Shown piece by piece: positions 2,911-12,250 of a DNA stretch of 12,343 nucleotides. Source of the DNA: Solirubrobacterales bacterium (lineage in GTDB: Bacteria; Actinomycetota; Thermoleophilia; Solirubrobacterales; Solirubrobacteraceae); contig PMKB01000051.1 in assembly GCA_003157595.1 (NCBI GenBank), positions 549-12,891 on the forward strand, written 5' to 3'. The notes beneath the pieces are model-generated. The model was not told the DNA's origin, made no database searches, and was given only the letters and a program-made list of their open reading frames with translations. Every line of letters starts with the position of its first letter. Positions within the stretch are counted from its first letter, which is position 1. Made by a program: the position numbers and the translations under genes.

Positions 2911-4185
<1,275 letters not shown>

Positions 4186-4249: not shown

Positions 4250-4298
4250 GCGGGTCGGCGCATGCGCCGACCCGCGGGTGGGTGCATGCACCCACCCG
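4250..4298. repeat. Two tandem perfect palindromes (24-bp unit)
   Basis: Two perfect palindromes lie end to end: 26 bp at 4250-4275 (half GCGGGTCGGCGCA) and 24 bp at 4275-4298 (half CGGGTGGGTGCA). Each contains a 22-bp core (4252-4273 and 4276-4297) with the same GCATGC centre and the same GGGT...ACCC ends. The cores differ at two positions per arm, and each change is matched in the other arm, so symmetry is kept. They may terminate eno transcription, in either direction because a palindrome is strand-symmetric, or bind a dimeric protein upstream of the hyf-like operon. No T-tract follows. Confidence 0.8.
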
Positions 4299-4317
4299 AA
4301 CAACCTCCAGGGTGCGC

Positions 4318-4323
4318 TATCTT
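4318..4323 (+). promoter_or_regulatory. Candidate -10 box of the hyf-like operon
   Basis: TATCTT fits the TANNNT consensus and is the most AT-rich hexamer in this intergenic region. A start near 4330 would give a leader of about 130 nt before the TTG start at 4459. No convincing -35 hexamer is present. At the right distance (4295-4300) the sequence is CCCGAA, partly inside the second palindrome, so a palindrome-binding protein could govern this promoter. Confidence 0.35.
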
Positions 4324-4329
4324 GTGGCG

Positions 4330-4396
4330 CGTCAGATGGAGTCCTGACGTGCGCGCCGGCTGTCCAGCCGACCGCCGAACCGCCCGGCCGGCTGGA
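4330..4396 (+). promoter_or_regulatory. Structured leader with competing stems
   Basis: The first element is the hairpin CGTCAG/CTGACG (4330-4335 and 4344-4349, 8-nt loop). After it, TCCAGCCG (4363-4370) can pair in two exclusive ways: with CGGCTG just upstream (4357-4362, a very tight loop) or with CGGCTGGA downstream (4389-4396, 8 bp, 18-nt loop). Such alternatives are typical of regulated leaders, but GC-rich sequence produces them by chance too. No known riboswitch class is recognised. Confidence 0.35.
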
Positions 4397-4405
4397 GGGC
4401 TGATG

Positions 4406-4447
4406 GCTCCTTTCGCGAATCATCGTCTGAGCGCACGCGAAAGGAGC
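4406..4447 (+). promoter_or_regulatory. Inverted repeat sequestering the operon's ribosome binding site
   Basis: A perfect 12-bp inverted repeat, GCTCCTTTCGCG (4406-4417) and CGCGAAAGGAGC (4436-4447), encloses an 18-nt loop. The right arm contains the only Shine-Dalgarno sequence of the next gene (AAAGGAG, 4440-4446, 12 nt before the TTG start). In RNA the stem would fully bury this site, so translation of the first gene, and of the coupled genes behind it, could depend on opening the stem. As DNA it could instead be a dimer operator. The pairing is directly visible; regulation is inferred. Confidence 0.6.
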
Positions 4448-4458
4448 TCGTCAACAGC

Positions 4459-6090
4459 TTGCCGATCCTTCCCGACTGGGCTGTCCAGGTACTGCAGGTC
4501 GTCACGATCCTGGCGTTCGCACCGCTCGTCAGCGGCGTCATCGCCTGGGCGGAGGCGAAGATTCAGCAGCGTCGCGGGCCGCGCGTCCTGCAGCCCTATT
4601 ACGACATCTTCAAGCTGCTGCGCAAGGAGACGGTGCTGCCGGCGCCGGCGGGTCCCCTGTTCCGCGCGGCGCCGTATGTGAGCTTCGCCGCCTACGCGAC
4701 CGTGCCGCTGCTGATCCCGGCGCTGAGCACCTTCCCGCTGCCGCTGGGGTACATGGCCGACTTTTTCGGCGTCGGGCTGATCCTCGCGCTGGCGAGCTTC
4801 GCCGTGTCGCTCGCGGCGGTTGACAGCGCCAGCCCCTACGCCCAGCTGGGGTCAAGCCGTCTGCGGTCGTTCGGGGCCTTCAACGAGCCGACCGTGATCT
4901 TCGTCACCTTCGTGCTGGCGCTCACCACGCACACCGACCTGCCCTACGCCTTCGGCGCGTCGCTGCGTTCGGCCACGGTGGCGGTCGTACGGCCCAGCCA
5001 TCTGCTGATGATCGCCGCCTTCTTCATGCTCGTGCTCGCCGAGACCGGACGCGTCCCGGTCGCCAATCACGGCTCCACGCTGGAGTTCGGGCAGATCGAG
5101 GAGGCCCGGGTCGCCGAGCATTCGGGGCCCGGACTGGCGTTTCTGCGCTGGGGCTCCGCCGTCAAGCAGCTGCTGCTGTTCACGATCTTCATGAACGTGC
5201 TGGTGGTGCCGTGGGGCCTCGCCGGGAGCGGCGGCCTGGGCGCGGTGGCGGTCGCGATCGGGCTGCTGCTCGCCAAGGCGCTCGTCGTCGGTGCGCTGGT
5301 GGTCGTGATCGAGTCGAGCTTCGCAAAGCTGCGGCTGTACAAGATCCCGGAGTTCACCGTCGCGAGCTTCCTGTTCTCGGTGCTCGCCGTCGTGATCTTC
5401 CTGTTCGAGCCGGCCTTCGGCGACCTGCACCTGAGCGTGTTCGGGGCCGCCGCGACGATCACCGCCGTCGGGGTGCTGCTGGCGGAGCTGGCGATGCTGC
5501 GCTCGACCGACGTCTGGGAGCAACTGCGGCTCTACGCGTTTGGATCGCTGCTCGTCGCAGCGCTGGCGTTCGCGACCGCGGCGACCGGGCGCGGCGGCGG
5601 CGAGCTCTACGCGCTGGGCGCGGTGACGATCGCGCTGAAGGCGATGCTCTTCCCGCTGGGGATCGCCTTCGTGCTGCGCCGCCTGGGCGCGCAGTCGCGT
5701 GTGCCGTCCTCGATCGGGGTGCCGAGCGCGATCCTGATCGGGGTCGCGCTGTGCGCGTTCGCGTTCATCGCGTTGCGCCCGGTGCACATCGGCGCCGAGG
5801 CCGTGCTGCCGCTGTCGGCGCTGCCGGTCGCGCTCGGCGGCGTGCTCGTCGCACTGCTGTTGATGGTGGTGCGCCCCTACGCGCCCTCGCAGCTGCTCGG
5901 CTTCCTCGTGCTGGAGAACGCGGTTTCGGTCGCGACGCTCGTGATCGCGCCGGGGCTGCCGATCATCCTCGCGCTGCTGTTGCTGTTCGACGTGCTGATC
6001 GGCGTGCTCGTGTTCGTCGTGCTCGTCCAGTACCTGGCGGTCGAGCGGACCGCGGTGCGCACCGACGTGCTGAACAGGCTGACCGGATGA
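4459..6090 (+). CDS. HyfC-HyfE fusion: NuoH-like plus hydrogenase-4 E-like membrane subunit
   Basis: This 543-residue membrane protein joins two subunits normally encoded separately. Residues 1-315 match HyfC/HycD/NuoH, the membrane anchor that couples the peripheral arm to the ion-pumping subunits. The matching features are AEAKIQQRRGP (31-41), YYDIFKLLRKE (47-57) and the acidic loop ETGRVPVANHG..LEFGQIEEARVAEHSG (195-223). Residues about 325-543 match HyfE: RLYAFGSLLVAALAF, an ALKAML segment with K394, and GFLVLENAV with E486. About 218 residues is close to a full-length HyfE, so the fusion keeps both parts whole. The frame runs through the junction without a stop. The start is TTG 4459, since no ATG/GTG lies in frame after the AAAGGAG site. 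The TGA overlaps the next gene's ATG (ATGA at 6087-6090), indicating translational coupling. No free HyfE gene is present in the window. Confidence 0.9.
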   Translation: MPILPDWAVQVLQVVTILAFAPLVSGVIAWAEAKIQQRRGPRVLQPYYDIFKLLRKETVLPAPAGPLFRAAPYVSFAAYATVPLLIPALSTFPLPLGYMADFFGVGLILALASFAVSLAAVDSASPYAQLGSSRLRSFGAFNEPTVIFVTFVLALTTHTDLPYAFGASLRSATVAVVRPSHLLMIAAFFMLVLAETGRVPVANHGSTLEFGQIEEARVAEHSGPGLAFLRWGSAVKQLLLFTIFMNVLVVPWGLAGSGGLGAVAVAIGLLLAKALVVGALVVVIESSFAKLRLYKIPEFTVASFLFSVLAVVIFLFEPAFGDLHLSVFGAAATITAVGVLLAELAMLRSTDVWEQLRLYAFGSLLVAALAFATAATGRGGGELYALGAVTIALKAMLFPLGIAFVLRRLGAQSRVPSSIGVPSAILIGVALCAFAFIALRPVHIGAEAVLPLSALPVALGGVLVALLLMVVRPYAPSQLLGFLVLENAVSVATLVIAPGLPIILALLLLFDVLIGVLVFVVLVQYLAVERTAVRTDVLNRLTG

Positions 6091-7565
6091 GCTGGGCGCT
6101 CTACGCGATGCTGGGTGTGCCGCTCGGCGCGGTGGCGCTGAGCGCGTTCGACGGCTGGCGGCTGGCGCGCGCGGCGACGCTGGTCGCCGGCCTGGTCTCG
6201 CTCGCGCTGGCGATCTGGATCGCGATCACCGTCGAGCACGGCCGGGTGATCGTGGCGGCGGGCGGCTGGCTGCGCGTGGACTCGCTCGGTGCCGTGTTCC
6301 TGCTCACGACGGGGCTGCTGTACGCGATGACGGGGATCTTCTCGATCGGCTACCTCGGCGTCGATCAGGGTCGCGCGGGCTTCCCGGGCTTCGCGAAGCG
6401 CTACTTCGCGCTGGTCAACCTGTTCGGCTGGAGCATGCTGCTCGTGCCGCTCGCCGCGGACTTCGGGACGCTGTGGGTCGCGGTCGAGCTGACGACGATC
6501 GTCTCCGCGCTGCTGGTCGCGATCGATCGCACTGACGCCGCGCTCGAGGCTTCGTGGAAGTACATCCTGATCGCCTCGAGCGGCCTGGGGATCGCGCTGG
6601 CGTCGATCGTCGTGCTCTACGCGACCGGTACGCACGCGCTCGGCAGCGCCTACCTTCCGCGTTTTCAGTCGTTTCTGCTGCACGCGCACGGCCTCTCGCC
6701 GGACGCGGTGCGCCTGGCATTCGTGCTTTCGCTGGTCGGGTTCGGCACGAAGGTCGGATTCGTGCCGACCCACACCTGGCTGCCGGATGCGCACAGCGAG
6801 GCGCCGGCGCCGGTCTCGGCGCTCCTTTCGGGCTCGCTGCTGGCGGCCGCGTTCTACGCGATCCTGCGCTTCTTCCAGGTCGCCGTTGCGGCCGGGGAGC
6901 GCTCGTTCGCCGAGCACGCGCTGATCGTCTTCGGCGTCATCTCGCTGGTCGCGGCGAGCTTCTTCGTGCTGCGCCAGAGCAATTACAAGCGGCTGCTGGC
7001 GTACTCATCGATCGAGCACATGGGGATCATCGCCCTGGGCATCGGCTTCGGCGCGCCGCTGGCGGTGGCCGGGGCGCTGCTGCACGTGATCACGCACGCC
7101 TCGGCGAAAGGCCTCGCGTTCTTCGGCTCCGGGTCGCTGCTGCGCGGCTATGACACCAAGGAGATCGACGGCGTGACGGGCGCCGGCCGGGCAATGCCGT
7201 GGACCGGTCCGATGTTCCTTGCGGCCGCGCTCGCCCTCTGCGGGCTGCCACTGTCGGGCGTGTTTCGCAGCGAGTTCCAGATCGTCCTCGGCGGGTTCGC
7301 CCAGGCGCAGTATGTCGGCGTCGCGCTGCTGCTGGTGTTCGTCAACGTCGCGTTCTTCGGCGTGATCTGGCACAGCGGGCGGATGGTCCTGAGCCGCGCC
7401 GCCGCGCCGGTCGCCGGCGTCGCGGCGCCGCGGGAGCGCAGCGCCTGGATGATCGCCGCGATGCTCGGCTGCCTGTTCGTCGTGATCGCACTCGGCGTGC
7501 ACCTCCCCGGGGATCTGGCGGCGCTGCTCGCCAACGCGAGCCACAGCCTGGCGGCTCCGCTGTGA
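6087..7565 (+). CDS. HyfF-like proton-translocating antiporter-type subunit
   Basis: This 492-residue integral membrane protein belongs to the NuoL/M/N-MrpA/D family and resembles hydrogenase-4 component F. Its role is ion (probably proton) translocation within the complex. The charged residues needed for this are visible in order: E134 in the TM5-like LWVAVELTTIVSALL, K222 in FGTKVGFVPTHTWLPDAHSE (219-238), then H337 and K341 in HVITHASAKG. The loop HTWLPDAHSEAPAPVSALLSG and the later LPLSGVFRSEFQIV are classic HyfF signatures. Translation starts at ATG 6087, inside the stop of the HyfC-HyfE gene, with no strong ribosome site of its own, so coupling is likely. It ends in GTGA, overlapping the next gene. 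No inactivating change is seen. Confidence 0.93.
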   Translation: MSWALYAMLGVPLGAVALSAFDGWRLARAATLVAGLVSLALAIWIAITVEHGRVIVAAGGWLRVDSLGAVFLLTTGLLYAMTGIFSIGYLGVDQGRAGFPGFAKRYFALVNLFGWSMLLVPLAADFGTLWVAVELTTIVSALLVAIDRTDAALEASWKYILIASSGLGIALASIVVLYATGTHALGSAYLPRFQSFLLHAHGLSPDAVRLAFVLSLVGFGTKVGFVPTHTWLPDAHSEAPAPVSALLSGSLLAAAFYAILRFFQVAVAAGERSFAEHALIVFGVISLVAASFFVLRQSNYKRLLAYSSIEHMGIIALGIGFGAPLAVAGALLHVITHASAKGLAFFGSGSLLRGYDTKEIDGVTGAGRAMPWTGPMFLAAALALCGLPLSGVFRSEFQIVLGGFAQAQYVGVALLLVFVNVAFFGVIWHSGRMVLSRAAAPVAGVAAPRERSAWMIAAMLGCLFVVIALGVHLPGDLAALLANASHSLAAPL

Positions 7566-9064
7566 GCGCCGGCGGCGGCGGCGCGGTCGGGGCGCCGGGC
7601 GAGCTGACCGGCTCGCTGGCGCAGCGGCTGGGCGCGGCGGTCGAGCCGGGCCCCCCGGGCGAGCTGCGTCTGCGCGTCGGCGCCGGCGAGTTCGATTCTG
7701 CCGTTCGGACGCTGCGTGAGGTGGGCGCGCGGTTCGTCAGCATTCTGTCCGCCGACACGCCGGAGCGGGCGCTGGTGGCGGTGTTCGCGCTGCATGGTGA
7801 GCTGGTCGTGCTGCGCGCCCCGGGCGGCGCGCCTGACGGGACGATCGGCAGCTGGTGGCCGGCCGTGCGCTGGGCCGAGCAGGAGCTGGTCGAACGGTGC
7901 TCCGGCGACGGCGGTGGCGCGGGCGGCTACGGGCGCCGCCTGACGGCGCCCGACGCTGACCTGCTCGACCGGCGGGTCGACGGCCTCGACGTCTTCACGA
8001 TCCCCTACGGCCCGGTGCGCTCGGGCGTGTTCGAGGCGATCCAATTCCAGATCGAGACCGGCGGCGAGGATGTCCCGCGGATCCAGACGCGTCCGTTCTT
8101 CAAGCACCGCGGGATGGAGCAGCGCTTCGCCGGCCTGACGCCCGACGCCGGCGTGCACGTCGCCGAGCGCGTCGCCGGCGTCGCGAGCGTCGCCTACGCC
8201 AGCGCGTTCTCCCAGGCCGTGGAGCGCGCCCTGGGCGTCGCGGCGCCGCCGCGGGCGGAGCGCTGGCGGGCCGTGTATGCCGAGCTCGAGCGGATCGCGT
8301 GCCACCTGGACGTGATCGCCAAGCAGGCCGAGGCGGCGGCGCTGTATGTCGGCCAGGCGCGCTTCGGGATCCTCAAGGAGCAGGTGATGCGCCTGCGCGC
8401 GACGCTGACCGGCAGCCGCTTCGGCCGCGGCGTGATAACGCCCGGCGGCGTGCGCTTCGAGGGCGCGATGGAGCTCGACGAGCTGCTCTTGGCGTTGGCC
8501 GGCCTCGAGCGTGAACTGCGCCGCGACCGGCGGCTGTTCCTCGCCACCGCGTCGATGACCGATCGCCTGATCGGCTCCGGGCGCCTGCCGCGGACGCTCG
8601 TGGAGGACCACAGCGCGGTCGGACCGCTCGCGCGCGGGTCGGGGCTCTCGACCGATGCTCGCCACGAGCGTCCCTACGGCGACTACCTGCGCCTGGGCCT
8701 GCGCGTGGTCACCCACCGCGAGGGCGACGCGATGGCCCGCGTGAACGTGCGCTTCGGCGAGCTGTCGGAGTCGCTGCGGATCCTGCGCCAGTCGATCGAT
8801 CATCTGCGCCGCCCCGCCGGCGAGCTCGCGGTTGCCCTGCCGGCTGACGGCGCCGGCGCGGCGTTCGGCTGGGCGGAGGCGCCGCAGGGCGAGCTGGTGA
8901 TCTGGGTCGAGATCCGCGACGGCTTGATCCACCGCGTGCACGTGGCGTCGCCGTCGCTGCGCAACTGGGCCCTGTTCGACCACGCCTTCCCGGACGACGT
9001 GCTGACCGACTTCGCCTTCATCGAGCACAGCTTCGGGCTGAGCGTCGCGGGAGCGGATCGCTGA
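7562..9064 (+). CDS. HyfG/NuoCD-like large subunit lacking all Ni-Fe cysteines
   Basis: This 500-residue soluble subunit has a NuoC-like (30-kDa) domain at about 30-130 and a NuoD/HycE-like (49-kDa) domain from about 145. Alignable motifs include YGPVRSGVFEAIQFQIETG (149-167), FFKHRGMEQRFAGL (179-192) and RPYGDYLRLGLRV (370-382). In Ni-Fe hydrogenases the segment after HRGME reads ERVCGIC; here it is ERVAGVA (202-208), so both cysteines are Ala. The C-terminal DPCxxC is also absent: the end is SFGLSVAGADR (490-500), with Ser494 and Gly497 at the cysteine positions. The protein stops at the Arg where hydrogenase precursors are normally cleaved, like NuoD. No Ni-Fe centre can be bound, so this is not a hydrogenase; it fits the Ehr class. 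The start is GTG 7562, overlapping the previous stop by 4 nt, followed by a Gly-rich N-terminus. Confidence 0.9.
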   Translation: MSAGGGGAVGAPGELTGSLAQRLGAAVEPGPPGELRLRVGAGEFDSAVRTLREVGARFVSILSADTPERALVAVFALHGELVVLRAPGGAPDGTIGSWWPAVRWAEQELVERCSGDGGGAGGYGRRLTAPDADLLDRRVDGLDVFTIPYGPVRSGVFEAIQFQIETGGEDVPRIQTRPFFKHRGMEQRFAGLTPDAGVHVAERVAGVASVAYASAFSQAVERALGVAAPPRAERWRAVYAELERIACHLDVIAKQAEAAALYVGQARFGILKEQVMRLRATLTGSRFGRGVITPGGVRFEGAMELDELLLALAGLERELRRDRRLFLATASMTDRLIGSGRLPRTLVEDHSAVGPLARGSGLSTDARHERPYGDYLRLGLRVVTHREGDAMARVNVRFGELSESLRILRQSIDHLRRPAGELAVALPADGAGAAFGWAEAPQGELVIWVEIRDGLIHRVHVASPSLRNWALFDHAFPDDVLTDFAFIEHSFGLSVAGADR

Positions 9065-9846
9065 TGCTCGAGTGGATTCCTCGAGGACTGCGCGGGGGCC
9101 GGGTAACCACGCGATACCCGCACCGCGAGGAGGCGGCCCCGCCGGGCTACCGTGGCCGTGTGGCGCTGCTGAACGACGCCGGCGCCGAGCGGGGGCTGGC
9201 CACCGTGTGCCCGACCGGCGCGATCGCGCTCGACGCGCAGCGGCGGCTGACGCTCGACCGCGGCCGCTGCATCCTTTGCGGGGCGTGCGTGGCGGCGGAG
9301 CCGGAGCGCTTCGCCTTCGAGTCGCGCTACCAGACCGCCGCGCGCTCACGCTCGGCGCTGATCGCCGGCGGCCCGGACGGCGCCGGCGGCGTCGAGCCGG
9401 CTCGCCGCGCGCTGGGTGAGCGGGCCGCTGCGCTGCGGCGCTCGATCCACGTGCGCCACATCGACTGCGGCTCCGACGGCTCCGAGGAGTGGGAGATCCA
9501 GGCCCTGTGGAACCCCCACTACGACATCCAGCGGCTGGGCTTCTTCCTCACCGCCGCTCCGCGCCACGCCGACGTGTTGCTCGTCACCGGCCCCGTGACC
9601 AGCGCGATGCGCCTGCCGCTGGAGCGCACATGGGAGGTCATGCCCGAGCCCAAGGCGCTGGTGGCCGTCGGCACCGACGCCTGCTCCGGCGGCCTCAGCG
9701 CCGCCGGGTCGCTGAGCGCCGGAGGCGTGGACGCCGTGCTGGGCGTCGATGTGTACGTGCCCGGCTCCCCGCCCGCGCCGATCGCGATCATGCACGGCCT
9801 GCTGCTCGCAACCGGCCTGCTGGGCGCCGCTGAGGTGAGCGCGTGA
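9064..9846 (+). CDS. Ferredoxin domain plus HyfI/NuoB-like small subunit with altered cluster ligands
   Basis: This 260-residue protein fuses a HyfH-like ferredoxin region (about 30-85) to a HyfI/NuoB-like domain (about 128-255). The ferredoxin region keeps one complete set of four [4Fe-4S] ligands, C49 (VCPTGAI) plus C69, C72 and C75 (CILCGAC). The four ligands of the other cluster are gone together: the first CxxCxxC is missing and Glu79 stands where the last Cys would be. In the NuoB-like domain, alignment to DxGSCNGCExEI gives DCGSDGSEEWEI (134-145), so CxxC becomes D138/E141. The third Cys is D205 (VGTDACSGG) and PGCPP is PGSPP (S235). The proximal N2-type cluster therefore cannot form normally. 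Two unpaired cysteines, C135 and C207, sit beside the lost positions. It starts with TGATG overlap at 9064 and ends in GTGA. Confidence 0.88.
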   Translation: MLEWIPRGLRGGRVTTRYPHREEAAPPGYRGRVALLNDAGAERGLATVCPTGAIALDAQRRLTLDRGRCILCGACVAAEPERFAFESRYQTAARSRSALIAGGPDGAGGVEPARRALGERAAALRRSIHVRHIDCGSDGSEEWEIQALWNPHYDIQRLGFFLTAAPRHADVLLVTGPVTSAMRLPLERTWEVMPEPKALVAVGTDACSGGLSAAGSLSAGGVDAVLGVDVYVPGSPPAPIAIMHGLLLATGLLGAAEVSA

Positions 9847-11819
9847 ACGCGGTCTACGCCGTCGCCATGGGCGCCCTCGCGCTCGCGCCGGCGCTTGCGC
9901 TGCGCACGCGTCGCCTGGCGTCGCTGTGCGCCGCCGCCGGCTGCACGCTGCTCGTGATCGTCGGGCTGACTGCGGCGCTCGACGGCGCGCGGCCGGTGCT
10001 CGAGCTCGGCAGCTGGCTCGGCTTCGGCCACAGCGCGCTGCGCGCGGACGGTCTCGCCGGCATCTTCCTCGCGCTCACCGGCCTGTGCGGCGCGGCGGTG
10101 TCGCTCGCCTACGCGGGGCTTCCCGCCGGTCGCTGGCTGACGGCGCTCGGCGCCGCGCTGCTCCTGTCGGTGGCGGTCGCGATCGGCTCCGACAACGCCT
10201 TCCTCTTCCTGCTGGCCTGGGAGGCGGTGACGGTCTGCATCTATCTGATCTCGAGCGCCGGCCGCGACCGCGAGGAGCTGATCGCCGGCTATCTCACCGG
10301 CGGGCTGGCGAAGCTCGGCGGCGCGGCGCTGCTTGCCGCCTTCGGGCTGCTGTACGCGCACACCCACAGCTTCTCGCTGGAGGCGTGGACGCACGCCGCG
10401 CTGCCGGCGGGAACGCGGAGCGTGCTGTTCGTGCTGTTCCTCGTCTGCTTCGCGACGAAGGTCGGCCTGGTCCCGCTGCAGGGCGGTTTGCCCGCCGGCT
10501 ACGGCTCGGCGCCCAGGTTGGGCGCCGCATCGCTTTCGGTCGCGCTGTGCGCCGGCTTCTACGGTCTGTGGCGCTTCGAGTTCCAGATCCTCGGGCCGCT
10601 GCCCGTCTGGTGCGGCGACGCGCTGCTGATCGTCGGCGCGATCAGCGCGTTGACCGGCATCACCTACGCCCTCACCCAGGACAACCTGCGGCGCTTCCTC
10701 GGCTATTCCACGGTCGAACACGCCGGTGTCGTGCTCGTCGGGCTCGGCGTCGCGCTGCTCGGCCACGCCGCGCACAAGCCGACGCTCGCCGCCGCCGGCC
10801 TGCTTGCCGCGACGCTGCACGTCTGCTCGCACAACCTGGCCAAGACGCTCGCCCTGATCGGCGTCGATCGCGTCGAGCAGGCGACCGGCCGGCGCACGCT
10901 CGACCCGCTCGGCGGGCTCTCCCGCCTGCTGCCGGCCAGCGCGCTGGCGCTCGGCATCTCCTCGCTGACGCTCGCGGCGATCCCGCCGCTCGGGGGCTTC
11001 GTCAGCGAGTGGTTCACCTTCGAGGCGCTGCTGCAGGCGTTCAGGATGCCGACGCTGCTCTCACGCCTCTTGTGCGCGCTGGCCGGCGCCGCGCTGGCGC
11101 TGACCGCGGGTCTCGGTCTGCTCGCCTTCGCCAAGTACTACAGCTTCATCTTCCTGGGCGCCGCGCGCAGCAAGCTGCGGATGCAGCGCGAGCCCTCGCG
11201 CTGGCCGTTCGGTCTGGTCGCGCTCGGCGCGGTGACGCTCTTCCTCGGCACGGTCGCACCGTGGGAGATCCATGCGATCGGGTCCGGCCTGCAGCCGCTG
11301 CTCGGACTGAACCCGGCCGCGACCACGATCAGCCATCCGCTCGTGCTCGGGCCCGTGTTCACGGGCTTCTCCGTGCTCGCCCCGACCTGGCTGAGCATCG
11401 TGCTGCCGGCGTACGCTGTGCTCGCGATGGTGATCGTGCGAGCGACTCGCGGACGCGAAGCGCGCGTCGCGCCGGTGCGGCGCGCGCCGGTCTGGGTCAG
11501 CGGCAGCGCCGCCGAGCTGGCCGCCGTGCAGTACCGGCCCTCCGCCTACTCCAACCCGATGCGCGTGATCCTGCGCGGCCCGCTCGGATTCCGCAGCTCG
11601 CTGCGCGCCGGCGGCGAGGAGGGCGCGCCGGAGCGCCTGACGCTCGACACGCGCGTCGTGCTCGCGGTCGACCGCTTCGTCTATGGGCCGACCGCCGCGC
11701 TCGCGTTGCGGATCGCGGGACGCGTTCGCGCGCTGCAGTCGGGCAAGCTCTCGTCCTACCTGCTCTACATGCTGATCGCCCTGATCGTCGCCCTCTCCCT
11801 CGTCCCGATCCTGCGCTGA
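9843..11819 (+). CDS. HyfB-like antiporter-type membrane subunit
   Basis: This 658-residue NuoL-family protein is like hydrogenase-4 component B, the second ion-translocating subunit of the complex. The key residues are conserved: E127 in LLAWEAVTVCIYLIS, K206 in CFATKVGLVPL, and H326, H330 and K334 in LHVCSHNLAKTLALIG. Also visible are YSTVEHAG (288-295) and PPLGGFVSEWFTFEALL. The C-terminus, from about 565 (SNPMRVILRGP to LQSGKLSSYLLYML), is the HyfB-type tail with a final membrane helix. One oddity is the loop after K206, which reads QGGLPAGYGSAP (213-224) instead of the usual HxWLPxAHPxAPS, so the histidines and Trp are lost here although HyfF retains them. The start is GTG 9843, overlapping the previous stop by 4 nt, with a good GAGG ribosome site 7 nt upstream. 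Confidence 0.92.
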   Translation: MNAVYAVAMGALALAPALALRTRRLASLCAAAGCTLLVIVGLTAALDGARPVLELGSWLGFGHSALRADGLAGIFLALTGLCGAAVSLAYAGLPAGRWLTALGAALLLSVAVAIGSDNAFLFLLAWEAVTVCIYLISSAGRDREELIAGYLTGGLAKLGGAALLAAFGLLYAHTHSFSLEAWTHAALPAGTRSVLFVLFLVCFATKVGLVPLQGGLPAGYGSAPRLGAASLSVALCAGFYGLWRFEFQILGPLPVWCGDALLIVGAISALTGITYALTQDNLRRFLGYSTVEHAGVVLVGLGVALLGHAAHKPTLAAAGLLAATLHVCSHNLAKTLALIGVDRVEQATGRRTLDPLGGLSRLLPASALALGISSLTLAAIPPLGGFVSEWFTFEALLQAFRMPTLLSRLLCALAGAALALTAGLGLLAFAKYYSFIFLGAARSKLRMQREPSRWPFGLVALGAVTLFLGTVAPWEIHAIGSGLQPLLGLNPAATTISHPLVLGPVFTGFSVLAPTWLSIVLPAYAVLAMVIVRATRGREARVAPVRRAPVWVSGSAAELAAVQYRPSAYSNPMRVILRGPLGFRSSLRAGGEEGAPERLTLDTRVVLAVDRFVYGPTAALALRIAGRVRALQSGKLSSYLLYMLIALIVALSLVPILR

Positions 11820-12250
11820 TGTTCCAGCGAATCCTGCTCGCCTGGGACGGCTCGGAGCTCGCGCTCCAAGCGTTCGACGTGGCGATCGATCTGGCCCGCC
11901 GCTACGAAGCCGAGCTGGTCGCGGTCTCGATCGCCTACTCCCCCACCCACGCCGAGACTGCCGCCGACCGCGAGGAGTCCTCAGATGCCGCACGCCGCTA
12001 TCTGCGGGAGACCTTTCGGGAGGTGGCCGACCGCGCGGAGCGGGTCGGCATGAGCGTCGAGCATCACATCATCGACGGCGAGCCGGCTGACGCGCTGGCC
12101 GGCTACGCCCACGAGCACGGCTTCGACCTGATCATCTGCGGACACCACCACAGCCGGCGTGCTGGACGCCTGCTGTTGCGCGGCGTCACTGAGCGCCTGC
12201 TCGCCGGCAGCACGGTCCCGCTGCTCATCGTCAGCAACGAGGCGCGCTGA
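11819..12250 (+). CDS. Universal stress protein (UspA family)
   Basis: This 143-residue single-domain cytoplasmic protein of the UspA family shows the N-terminal strand FQRILLAWDGSELALQAFDVAIDLA, a central VSIAYSP, and a C-terminal nucleotide-loop region ICGHHHSRRAGRLLLRGVTERLL before VPLLIV. Compared with the ATP-binding consensus G-2x-G-9x-G-S/T, the second Gly is His and the third is Arg (RGVT, shifted by one), so ATP binding is doubtful. The ATG overlaps the stop of the HyfB gene by one base (TGATG), and no separate ribosome site is seen. It is therefore probably co-translated with the membrane complex. A regulatory or protective role for the complex is inference from position only. Confidence 0.93.
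   Translation: MFQRILLAWDGSELALQAFDVAIDLARRYEAELVAVSIAYSPTHAETAADREESSDAARRYLRETFREVADRAERVGMSVEHHIIDGEPADALAGYAHEHGFDLIICGHHHSRRAGRLLLRGVTERLLAGSTVPLLIVSNEAR

Follow-up and report, generated by a model that had tools for sequence, protein, structure and literature searches.

A putative fluoride riboswitch precedes an operon for a hydrogenase-related complex predicted to move ions without a Ni-Fe site

What work is left for a complex of the hydrogenase and complex I type once its peripheral arm has lost both the Ni-Fe site and the proximal cluster? The question is raised by a 12,343-nt stretch of Solirubrobacterales DNA (hereafter the window; G000:C286:549-12891 of a 2.95 Mb metagenome-assembled genome (MAG), 73% complete; its near relatives among named records include the isolate Conexibacter sp. 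S30A1 besides MAGs of Solirubrobacterales). Its nine genes all lie on the + strand, and the six overlapping genes at 4459–12250 are, as judged from their sequences, those of an energy-converting-hydrogenase-related (Ehr) complex. The initial annotation described a complex I-like ion pump with a redox-depleted arm, coupled to something other than hydrogen or quinone chemistry (a hydration, ligand-binding or conformational reaction) or acting as a regulated antiporter, and overlooked a fluoride riboswitch at 4321–4422. With this element taken into account, the operon probably encodes a fluoride-induced, non-hydrogenase ion transporter that restores pH and proton-motive force under hydrogen fluoride (HF) stress. 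The link to fluoride is strong; the ions moved and the driving force we infer.

The riboswitch is a variant of the Rfam fluoride aptamer (RF01734) with an insert between its two stems (4321–4422, core 4335–4410, + strand). A cmscan run with permissive filters matched it at 4323–4419 with 22.0 bits and E = 0.019, against a gathering score of 34, the low score being probably due to the inserted segment. The conserved core, both stems and the pseudoknot are all present, and the aptamer is the sole RF01734 match reported at E ≤ 0.1 for the 2.95 Mb MAG (150 scored out of 392 first-look candidates). In relatives, the orthologous operon is preceded by leaders that share the core but differ in the stems. 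In an alignment of 13 aptamers, the stems and pseudoknot are paired in 97.4% of cells, a pairing abolished by sliding the partners, and 7 of 12 pairs covary on both sides. A strict pattern search found the aptamer in only 12 of 101 sequences, and a covariance model was used instead.

The mode of control can be read from the segment between aptamer and operon. The 3′ arm of the aptamer (4406–4417, + strand), which holds the pseudoknot strand CTCC, can pair through 12 complementary bases with 4436–4447 on the same strand, a segment that carries the Shine-Dalgarno sequence AAAGGAG, 12 nt ahead of the TTG start codon at 4459; none of 200 shuffles gave a complement as long, and folds were also computed. 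The arrangement reads as a translational ON switch, in which the fluoride-stabilised pseudoknot and the masked Shine-Dalgarno sequence would be mutually exclusive, and the leader is predicted to bind fluoride and switch expression. Exact pairing with the Shine-Dalgarno sequence extends over 11 bp in L059, 10 in L065, 8 in L064 and 7 in L061, but over no more than 5 in L056 and 6 in L057. Because the exact-match test, which leaves wobble pairs uncounted, is mostly not significant outside the window's clade, the masking platform is claimed for that clade only.

The association with the operon was followed in relatives. A genome scan with a nine-sequence large-subunit alignment kept 80 named loci of 150 relatives, spanning Actinobacteria, Acidobacteria, Proteobacteria and Chloroflexi, and a covariance model (R1) built from 13 aptamers was run on these and the window. 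A riboswitch was counted when it lay on the same strand, within 500 nt upstream of HyfC and at E ≤ 0.01, weaker R1 matches being dropped. HyfC and upstream DNA are both present in 64 of the 81 loci (17 are not testable in this way), and a riboswitch precedes HyfC in 50 of these 64, the window included (47 at E ≤ 0.001; 43 of 57 at E ≤ 0.01 without the seven loci that trained R1). All except two of the 50 end 13–164 nt before HyfC. In L067 and L072, the riboswitch precedes a histidine-phosphatase-cluster gene standing before hyfC. Matches at the Rfam gathering level precede HyfC in L125, L134, L155 and L156 (50.7–57.2 bits). Anywhere in the locus, a riboswitch is found in 63 of 81; neither a riboswitch nor CrcB, DUF190 or enolase is found in 17 of the 80 named loci, 10 of them shorter than 12 kb. 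The reverse survey, of 30 RF01734 loci from 146 genomes of the window's family, placed four beside HyfC of the same type, directly upstream in L165 and L189 and divergently in L166 and L185; CrcB was the commonest among the neighbours looked for around the 30.

Loci that keep the hydrogenase site behave otherwise. In 22 control loci with three or four Ni-Fe cysteines (4 + 18), all from the window's class, no riboswitch lies upstream of the operon in any of the 19 having at least 200 nt of upstream DNA. A riboswitch anywhere is found in 67 of 90 Ni-Fe-less places versus 2 of 22 Ni-Fe-keeping ones (Fisher 2.0e-8; 3.5e-11 without those two), and the 67 distinct places with a riboswitch have at most one Ni-Fe cysteine each; L042 and L105, which are the same place, count once in such per-place comparisons and twice in the ligand table and the enolase residue check. 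L154, scanned as a further control, turned out to be Ni-Fe-less and carries riboswitches and an enolase. Other Ehr subtypes (L047–L050, L055, L157 and L159) gave no riboswitch match. A large-subunit tree of 88 rows places every one of the 64 rows with a riboswitch in one 79-row clade (100/99) and none among the 9 outside it; 14 of 102 rows (duplicates, fragments and doubtful frames, including the riboswitch-bearing L064, L095, L105 and L107) had been omitted beforehand, and the deep rows L043 and L044–L046 attach by long branches.

The HyfG (NuoCD-like) large subunit (7562–9064, + strand, 500 aa; PF00346/PF00374) matches HycE of E. coli formate hydrogenlyase (FHL; 7z0s_E) by sequence and, with a template-modelling (TM) score of 0.85, by predicted fold, despite having A205, A208, S494 and G497 in the four columns of the Ni-Fe ligands (alignment to 7z0s). 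Because these ligands are absent, the window's complex cannot be a hydrogenase. The small subunit (9064–9846, + strand, 260 aa; 7z0s_G) is a fusion of a ferredoxin-like domain (PF13459) to a NuoB/HyfI-like part (PF01058), modelled with medium confidence (pLDDT 73). Alignment to E. coli HycG (7z0s_G) puts D138, E141, D205 and S235 at the four cysteine positions of the proximal (N2) cluster. C207, considered as a retained N2 ligand, was rejected, as the HycG alignment sets that ligand at D205 and all four are lost; transfer of electrons through an N2-type cluster is thus precluded as well. In 121 sequences (the window and the best 120 of 3606 matches), D138, E141 and S235 are each conserved to at least 98% and D205 to at least 90%, and cysteines 49, 69, 72 and 75 of the Fer4 domain are present in all 121, leaving one [4Fe-4S] motif. 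The losses of Ni-Fe site and proximal cluster first noted in the initial annotation hold, and by these alignments the redox depletion of the arm is real and old, although with one cluster motif remaining the arm is depleted, not empty.

The N2 site has had a varied history. The small subunit was scored in 80 clade members: 31 have the CCCC set and 35 DEDS, the rest being mostly D-rich variants, and the riboswitch-bearing tree rows with D-rich sets all belong to one clade of 45 rows (100/97) from Actinobacteria and Chloroflexi. Both N2-intact and N2-replaced members are riboswitch-linked. Since an Ehr group without the fluoride link (L048–L050 and L055) has an altered set as well (TCDD), losing N2 is by itself no mark of the fluoride link. 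The Fer4 motif is kept as a fused domain in 76 of the 80 scored members, and L042 and L043 encode it separately. Two members of the window's clade, L056 and L062, have deleted the Fer4 domain in frame, and the small subunit stays continuous; at these loci no other ferredoxin-like CxxCxxC protein is apparent and no cluster motif is left in the operon. Both sequences are from MAGs, in which an assembly error is possible, though the deletions are not the same and each preserves the frame. L062 is cut upstream, and in L056, where fluoride control can be examined, the riboswitch is retained (E 4.8e-13). These two relatives suggest that at least some members lack an intrinsic redox centre, and the fluoride-related job, it seems, needs neither N2 nor, apparently, Fer4. 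The strongest argument that the membrane arm would work without electron transfer is this loss of Fer4 and N2 with fluoride control kept in L056.

The membrane arm, in contrast to this depleted arm, has kept the residues of its ion path. It comprises a 543-aa fusion of HyfC (NuoH-like) to a HyfE-like membrane subunit (4459–6090; PF00146, E = 8.7e-27; 7z0s_D), residues 340–542 of which match the hydrogenase 4 membrane subunit model; a 492-aa HyfF-like antiporter subunit (6087–7565; PF00361, hydrogenase 4 subunit F models; 6u8y_H); and a 658-aa HyfB-like antiporter subunit (9843–11819; PF00361, hydrogenase 4 subunit B model; 7z0s_C), all on the + strand. The last gene of the operon encodes a UspA-family protein (11816–12250, + strand; PF00582, E = 2.7e-28), found in the same position in all six orthologous loci L036–L041, and each junction between the six genes is a 1- or 4-nt overlap, as was seen at the outset. 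For the residues that we take, from work on complex I, to be relevant to the ion path, retention is at least 90% across 73–79 sequences, the window included: HyfF E134, K222, K301, K341 and E396 are kept in 72–79 of 76–79, HyfB E127, K206, K334 and E389 in 79 of 79, and HyfC E209, E215 and E220 in 69–72 of 73–74, which bears out the earlier statement that the antiporter Glu/Lys residues and the HyfC coupling loop are intact. The complex is a maintained machine, not a wreck.

The surroundings of the operon point to fluoride as well. By sequence clusters in the 80 named loci, with cluster representatives confirmed by Pfam, the neighbours include CrcB (15 loci), DUF190 (24), enolase (16, or 18 by BLAST label), MutS domain V (21), dynamin-like GTPase (20) and UspA (30); CrcB, DUF190 or enolase occurs in 33 of 80. 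In Acidithiobacillus ferrianus and a Nitrobacter sp., crcB and a DUF190 gene directly follow the operon. On a conjugative Burkholderia plasmid the operon is annotated among an inorganic diphosphatase, DUF190 and the fluoride efflux transporter CrcB, together with MutS, dynamin and a chloride-channel family protein, and this region has seven RF01734 matches above gathering in 21 kb. The survey of recurrent neighbours that was proposed with the initial annotation thus yields riboswitch, CrcB, DUF190, enolase, MutS-V and dynamin-like genes; the MutS domain V-like ATPases (cluster c6) and dynamin-like GTPases (c7) keep company with operons and riboswitches alike.

Enolase is a classic target of fluoride, and in the window an enolase gene (2911–4185, + strand; PF00113), a recurrent neighbour of this operon type, lies upstream of the operon with its catalytic residues intact. 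All 12 residues checked are kept in 12 of 17 linked enolases, the window's included, and the other five, shortened by gene calling or a contig end, keep the residues that are present. Several genomes carry a second, unlinked enolase; in the window's incomplete MAG, only the linked copy was found. As enolase is a hydro-lyase, it was considered as a reaction partner in dehydration-coupled pumping, a version of the hydration coupling suggested earlier, but this is unlikely, since linked copies look catalytically intact, second enolases exist and the linked copy is degenerate in two genomes (G024 and G030). The linked enolase is better explained as an extra supply of the fluoride-inhibited enzyme. 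In another order of the class, enolase copies beside Ehr operons (L044, 12746–13328; L045, 3190–4404) are degenerate, with stops or the middle part missing, a hint that an extra enolase disappears once no longer selected. Two further ideas were set aside: involvement of a nearby SulP transporter or carbon chemistry of the DAB type, as there is no SulP label among the neighbours listed for the 80 loci and no DabA domain (which we take to be UPF0753/PF10070) among the nine window proteins, and anti-phage defence, as neither UspA nor the small subunit has a PADLOC match.

Taken with published observations on the fluoride riboswitch, these features suggest how the system might operate. The crcB motif has been reported before mutS and before genes of formate hydrogen lyase and K+/Cl− transport (passages of PMC2864571). 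According to a 2024 review, genes commonly linked to the riboswitch include those for Na+/H+ antiporters, enolase and formate hydrogen lyase; it also states that HF acidifies the cytoplasm and ranks Na+/H+ antiporters as the next-commonest class of riboswitch genes after exporters (sections of PMC11139923). In the proposed mechanism, the mRNA leader would act as a fluoride aptamer, as its sequence and covariation suggest; fluoride would stabilise the GGAG:CTCC pseudoknot, keep the 3′ arm off the Shine-Dalgarno sequence and turn translation of the operon on. The product is, by its sequence, an Ehr-type complex with a HycE-/HycG-like arm on a HyfB/HyfF/HyfC/HyfE membrane part, which may exchange H+ for a monovalent cation or otherwise move H+. 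As HF leaks in and releases H+ and F−, the membrane part would restore cytoplasmic pH and membrane potential, F− would exit via CrcB channels, and the extra enolase would substitute for the inhibited enzyme. The arm may serve as a gate or sensor, perhaps with UspA. It is very likely that the operon serves fluoride stress, and likely, with good assurance, that the complex moves ions without hydrogenase or N2 chemistry; that its activity is cation/H+ antiport stands at about even chances, and that fluoride itself is the coupling ligand is improbable. Of the couplings first offered, the regulated antiporter is favoured over hydration or ligand binding.

Several observations weigh against the fluoride-induced ion transporter. 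The window's aptamer scores below the Rfam gathering level (22.0 vs 34), was not reported at an E 0.001 cut-off with stricter filters, and has a single-genome E of 0.00106; in the nine closest named loci no HyfC leader reaches the RF01734 gathering score, and three gathering-level matches there (L059, L061 and L064) lie on the strand opposite to the operon. Upstream matches at E ≤ 0.01 are missing from 14 of the 64 testable loci, seven of which have weaker ones (E 0.014–0.18) in the expected place. The 80 loci were chosen by likeness to the window, R1 was partly built from leaders of these operons, and it gave two weak matches inside control operons, at HyfG (L142, E 0.0015; L145, E 0.007). 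Fluoride riboswitches are also common: 8 of 14 well-known control genomes match at E ≤ 0.1, 4 over the cut-off. Transport activity, induction and phenotype of the operon are predictions, and the part given to UspA is a guess. The proteobacterial/acidobacterial clade, finally, keeps all four N2 cysteines, and with the fused Fer4 of 76 clade members this means that a redox role may still be played in the class.

Such a role would be that of a redox pump, in which reduced ferredoxin passes electrons through the retained [4Fe-4S] cluster to an acceptor within or close to the former Ni-Fe/quinone cavity and so drives pumping when fluoride blocks glycolysis. The constancy of the Fer4 cysteines, fused or encoded separately, and the 31 complete N2 sets fit this, as does the greater abundance of a Geobacter Ehr complex on formate (reported in part of PMC7894505). 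The D/E/D/S set of the window's clade and the absence of an oxidoreductase partner among annotated recurrent neighbour clusters argue the other way, and the in-frame Fer4 deletions of L056 and L062, the former with its riboswitch, lowered further the probability that we give to the redox pump, which is now unlikely, and slightly raised that of the fluoride-induced ion transporter. The same losses, with the membrane residues kept, agree with the initial proposal that the coupling is not hydrogen or quinone chemistry. Even less should be expected of the idea that cells under fluoride stress ferment with a genuine formate hydrogenlyase or hydrogenase. Annotation and homology would suggest it, and the portion of PMC11139923 that treats the riboswitch-linked formate hydrogen lyase reads it as fermentative formate oxidation; the missing ligands, the 0 of 67 riboswitch-bearing places with more than one of the four cysteines and the absence of formate dehydrogenase from the nine window proteins make it scarcely credible, and by the ligand table it counts as already refuted for the window. 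The true formate hydrogenlyase genes of E. coli go down with fluorinated acid, according to an excerpt of PMC12595759.

A different use of the old metal sites was also considered, in which the D/E/D/S set at the N2 site and the emptied Ni-Fe cavity bind F−, alone or with Mg2+, and binding drives or gates the proton channels, so that H+/F− exchange exports fluoride. The change from cysteine to carboxylate in one clade (DEDS in 35 of 80) and the F− channels and riboswitches frequently nearby speak for such a fluoride-coupled transporter, as does an Alicyclobacillus plasmid on which a fluoride riboswitch precedes a HyfG that stands alone. We nevertheless regard it, and the binding centre on which it depends, as improbable: CrcB adjoins 15 of 80 operons, where a second exporter seems unnecessary, N2-intact members are fluoride-linked as well, and the TCDD group has an altered N2 set and no fluoride link. 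If true, a complex I relative would be driven by the binding of a ligand, and fluoride exporters would gain a third kind, or proton pumps a fluoride-gated one. An ordinary Ehr complex, lastly, might merely hitch-hike in resistance islands with no fluoride function, as the location of some operons on plasmids and of L117 near a phage-type integrase could suggest. The position of the riboswitch directly on the operon, same strand and 13–164 nt before HyfC in 48 of 50 positive loci, the 7–12 bp of exact Shine-Dalgarno pairing in five loci of the window's clade, and the lack of a riboswitch in the other Ehr subtypes make this very improbable.

The fluoride-linked transporter is worth comparing with known systems. 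Ehr complexes are described in parts of PMC10284858 and PMC6728331 as lacking Ni-Fe ligands and being of unknown function, and in a passage of PMC6349859 as suspected redox pumps; in the open-licence literature, we found no publication joining them and fluoride. The window's complex shares their HyfB/HyfF/HyfC/HyfE membrane part, HycE/HycG-like arm and lack of Ni-Fe ligands, whereas its subgroup is riboswitch-linked, has hyfC as first gene and in most cases carries the ferredoxin domain as a fusion with the small subunit, and its Actinobacteria/Chloroflexi members have lost N2 too. Sequence comparison of HyfB, HyfC, HyfG and the small subunit gives E. coli FHL-1 (7z0s/7z0t) and hydrogenase 4 (Hyf) as the nearest solved relatives, from which it differs in lacking the Ni-Fe and proximal-cluster ligands and, within the window, formate dehydrogenase and a separate HycB-type subunit; the two CxxC motifs and the four-cysteine proximal cluster of group 4 [NiFe]-hydrogenases are both missing, with the fold kept. 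With complex I, MBH (6cfw) and MBS (6u8y), it has NuoH-, NuoM/L-, NuoB- and NuoCD-like subunits and ion-path residues in common, but neither N-module genes nor N2 ligands. The search for NuoE/F/G-like genes, confined to the nine proteins of the window, found none, and the window holds neither the formate dehydrogenase nor the NADH module whose absence had been noted. Antiporter subunits with key Glu/Lys residues also recall Mrp-type cation/H+ antiporters, a mode of action that is only proposed here; the window has no Mrp gene set and does have a complex I-like arm. To the RF01734 regulon (crcB, enolase, pyrophosphatase, antiporters and 'formate hydrogen lyase') the likeness lies in aptamer core, pseudoknot and neighbour genes, and the difference in a target without hydrogenase site, an aptamer with an insert and control that looks translational.

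Related operons add to this picture. On contig C4 of the same MAG (L003), there is a second group-4-like operon that keeps the N-terminal CxxC, the contig ending before the C-terminal motif. The search for a second, cysteine-bearing large/small subunit pair as a possible partner of the window's membrane subunits leads to this operon, but it comes with a HyfB, HyfC and HyfF of its own, arranged differently, and so does not need those of the window. The window itself contains no maturation genes, as stated initially, but HypD, the one hyp gene searched for, is found elsewhere in the MAG (G000:C325, L005); the C4 operon could need it, so that HypD is uninformative on the window operon, and the MAG may make a real hydrogenase from C4 too. 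L042 (2611–17503, = L105), from a relative of the window's genus, has two complete Ehr operons in tandem, in which the four-cysteine ferredoxin part is encoded separately; an enolase precedes the pair, and each operon has a riboswitch match upstream, the first one weak (E 0.0024). Another Ehr subtype is plasmid-borne in Rhodococcus (L157, 1957–9245) and Rhizobium (L159, 2618–9788), with small-subunit or helix-turn-helix and hyfB genes first, Ni-Fe ligands lost and N2 cysteines kept; neither a riboswitch match nor a fluoride gene annotated within 8 kb was seen there. The other window genes encode a SulP-STAS transporter (41–1537, + strand) and a GGDEF protein (1673–2773, + strand) whose N-terminal half is long, charged and repetitive (SDQxxAD/ADR-type repeats). 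Between enolase and riboswitch (4250–4300) lie two adjacent short palindromes with cores GGCGCATGCGCC and GGGTGCATGCACCC, perhaps the enolase terminator.

The lone HyfG-like large subunit mentioned above (L158, 7499–9203, Alicyclobacillus sp. ALC3 plasmid NZ_CP066785.1) stands behind its fluoride riboswitch among CrcB, DUF190 and major facilitator superfamily (MFS) genes, with no membrane subunit annotated within the range inspected, 20057–135900; a HyfG on its own would suggest that the subunit has a separate job. For the family as a whole, one Ehr branch would gain a concrete, testable job, fluoride survival, and the reading as formate-oxidising fermentation would be corrected, the site for such chemistry being missing in the loci scored. 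The members form a natural series, with N2 present, N2 lost, N2 and Fer4 lost and possibly HyfG alone, in which the working of a complex I-like membrane arm in the absence of electron flow, long an issue in the study of coupling, can be examined.

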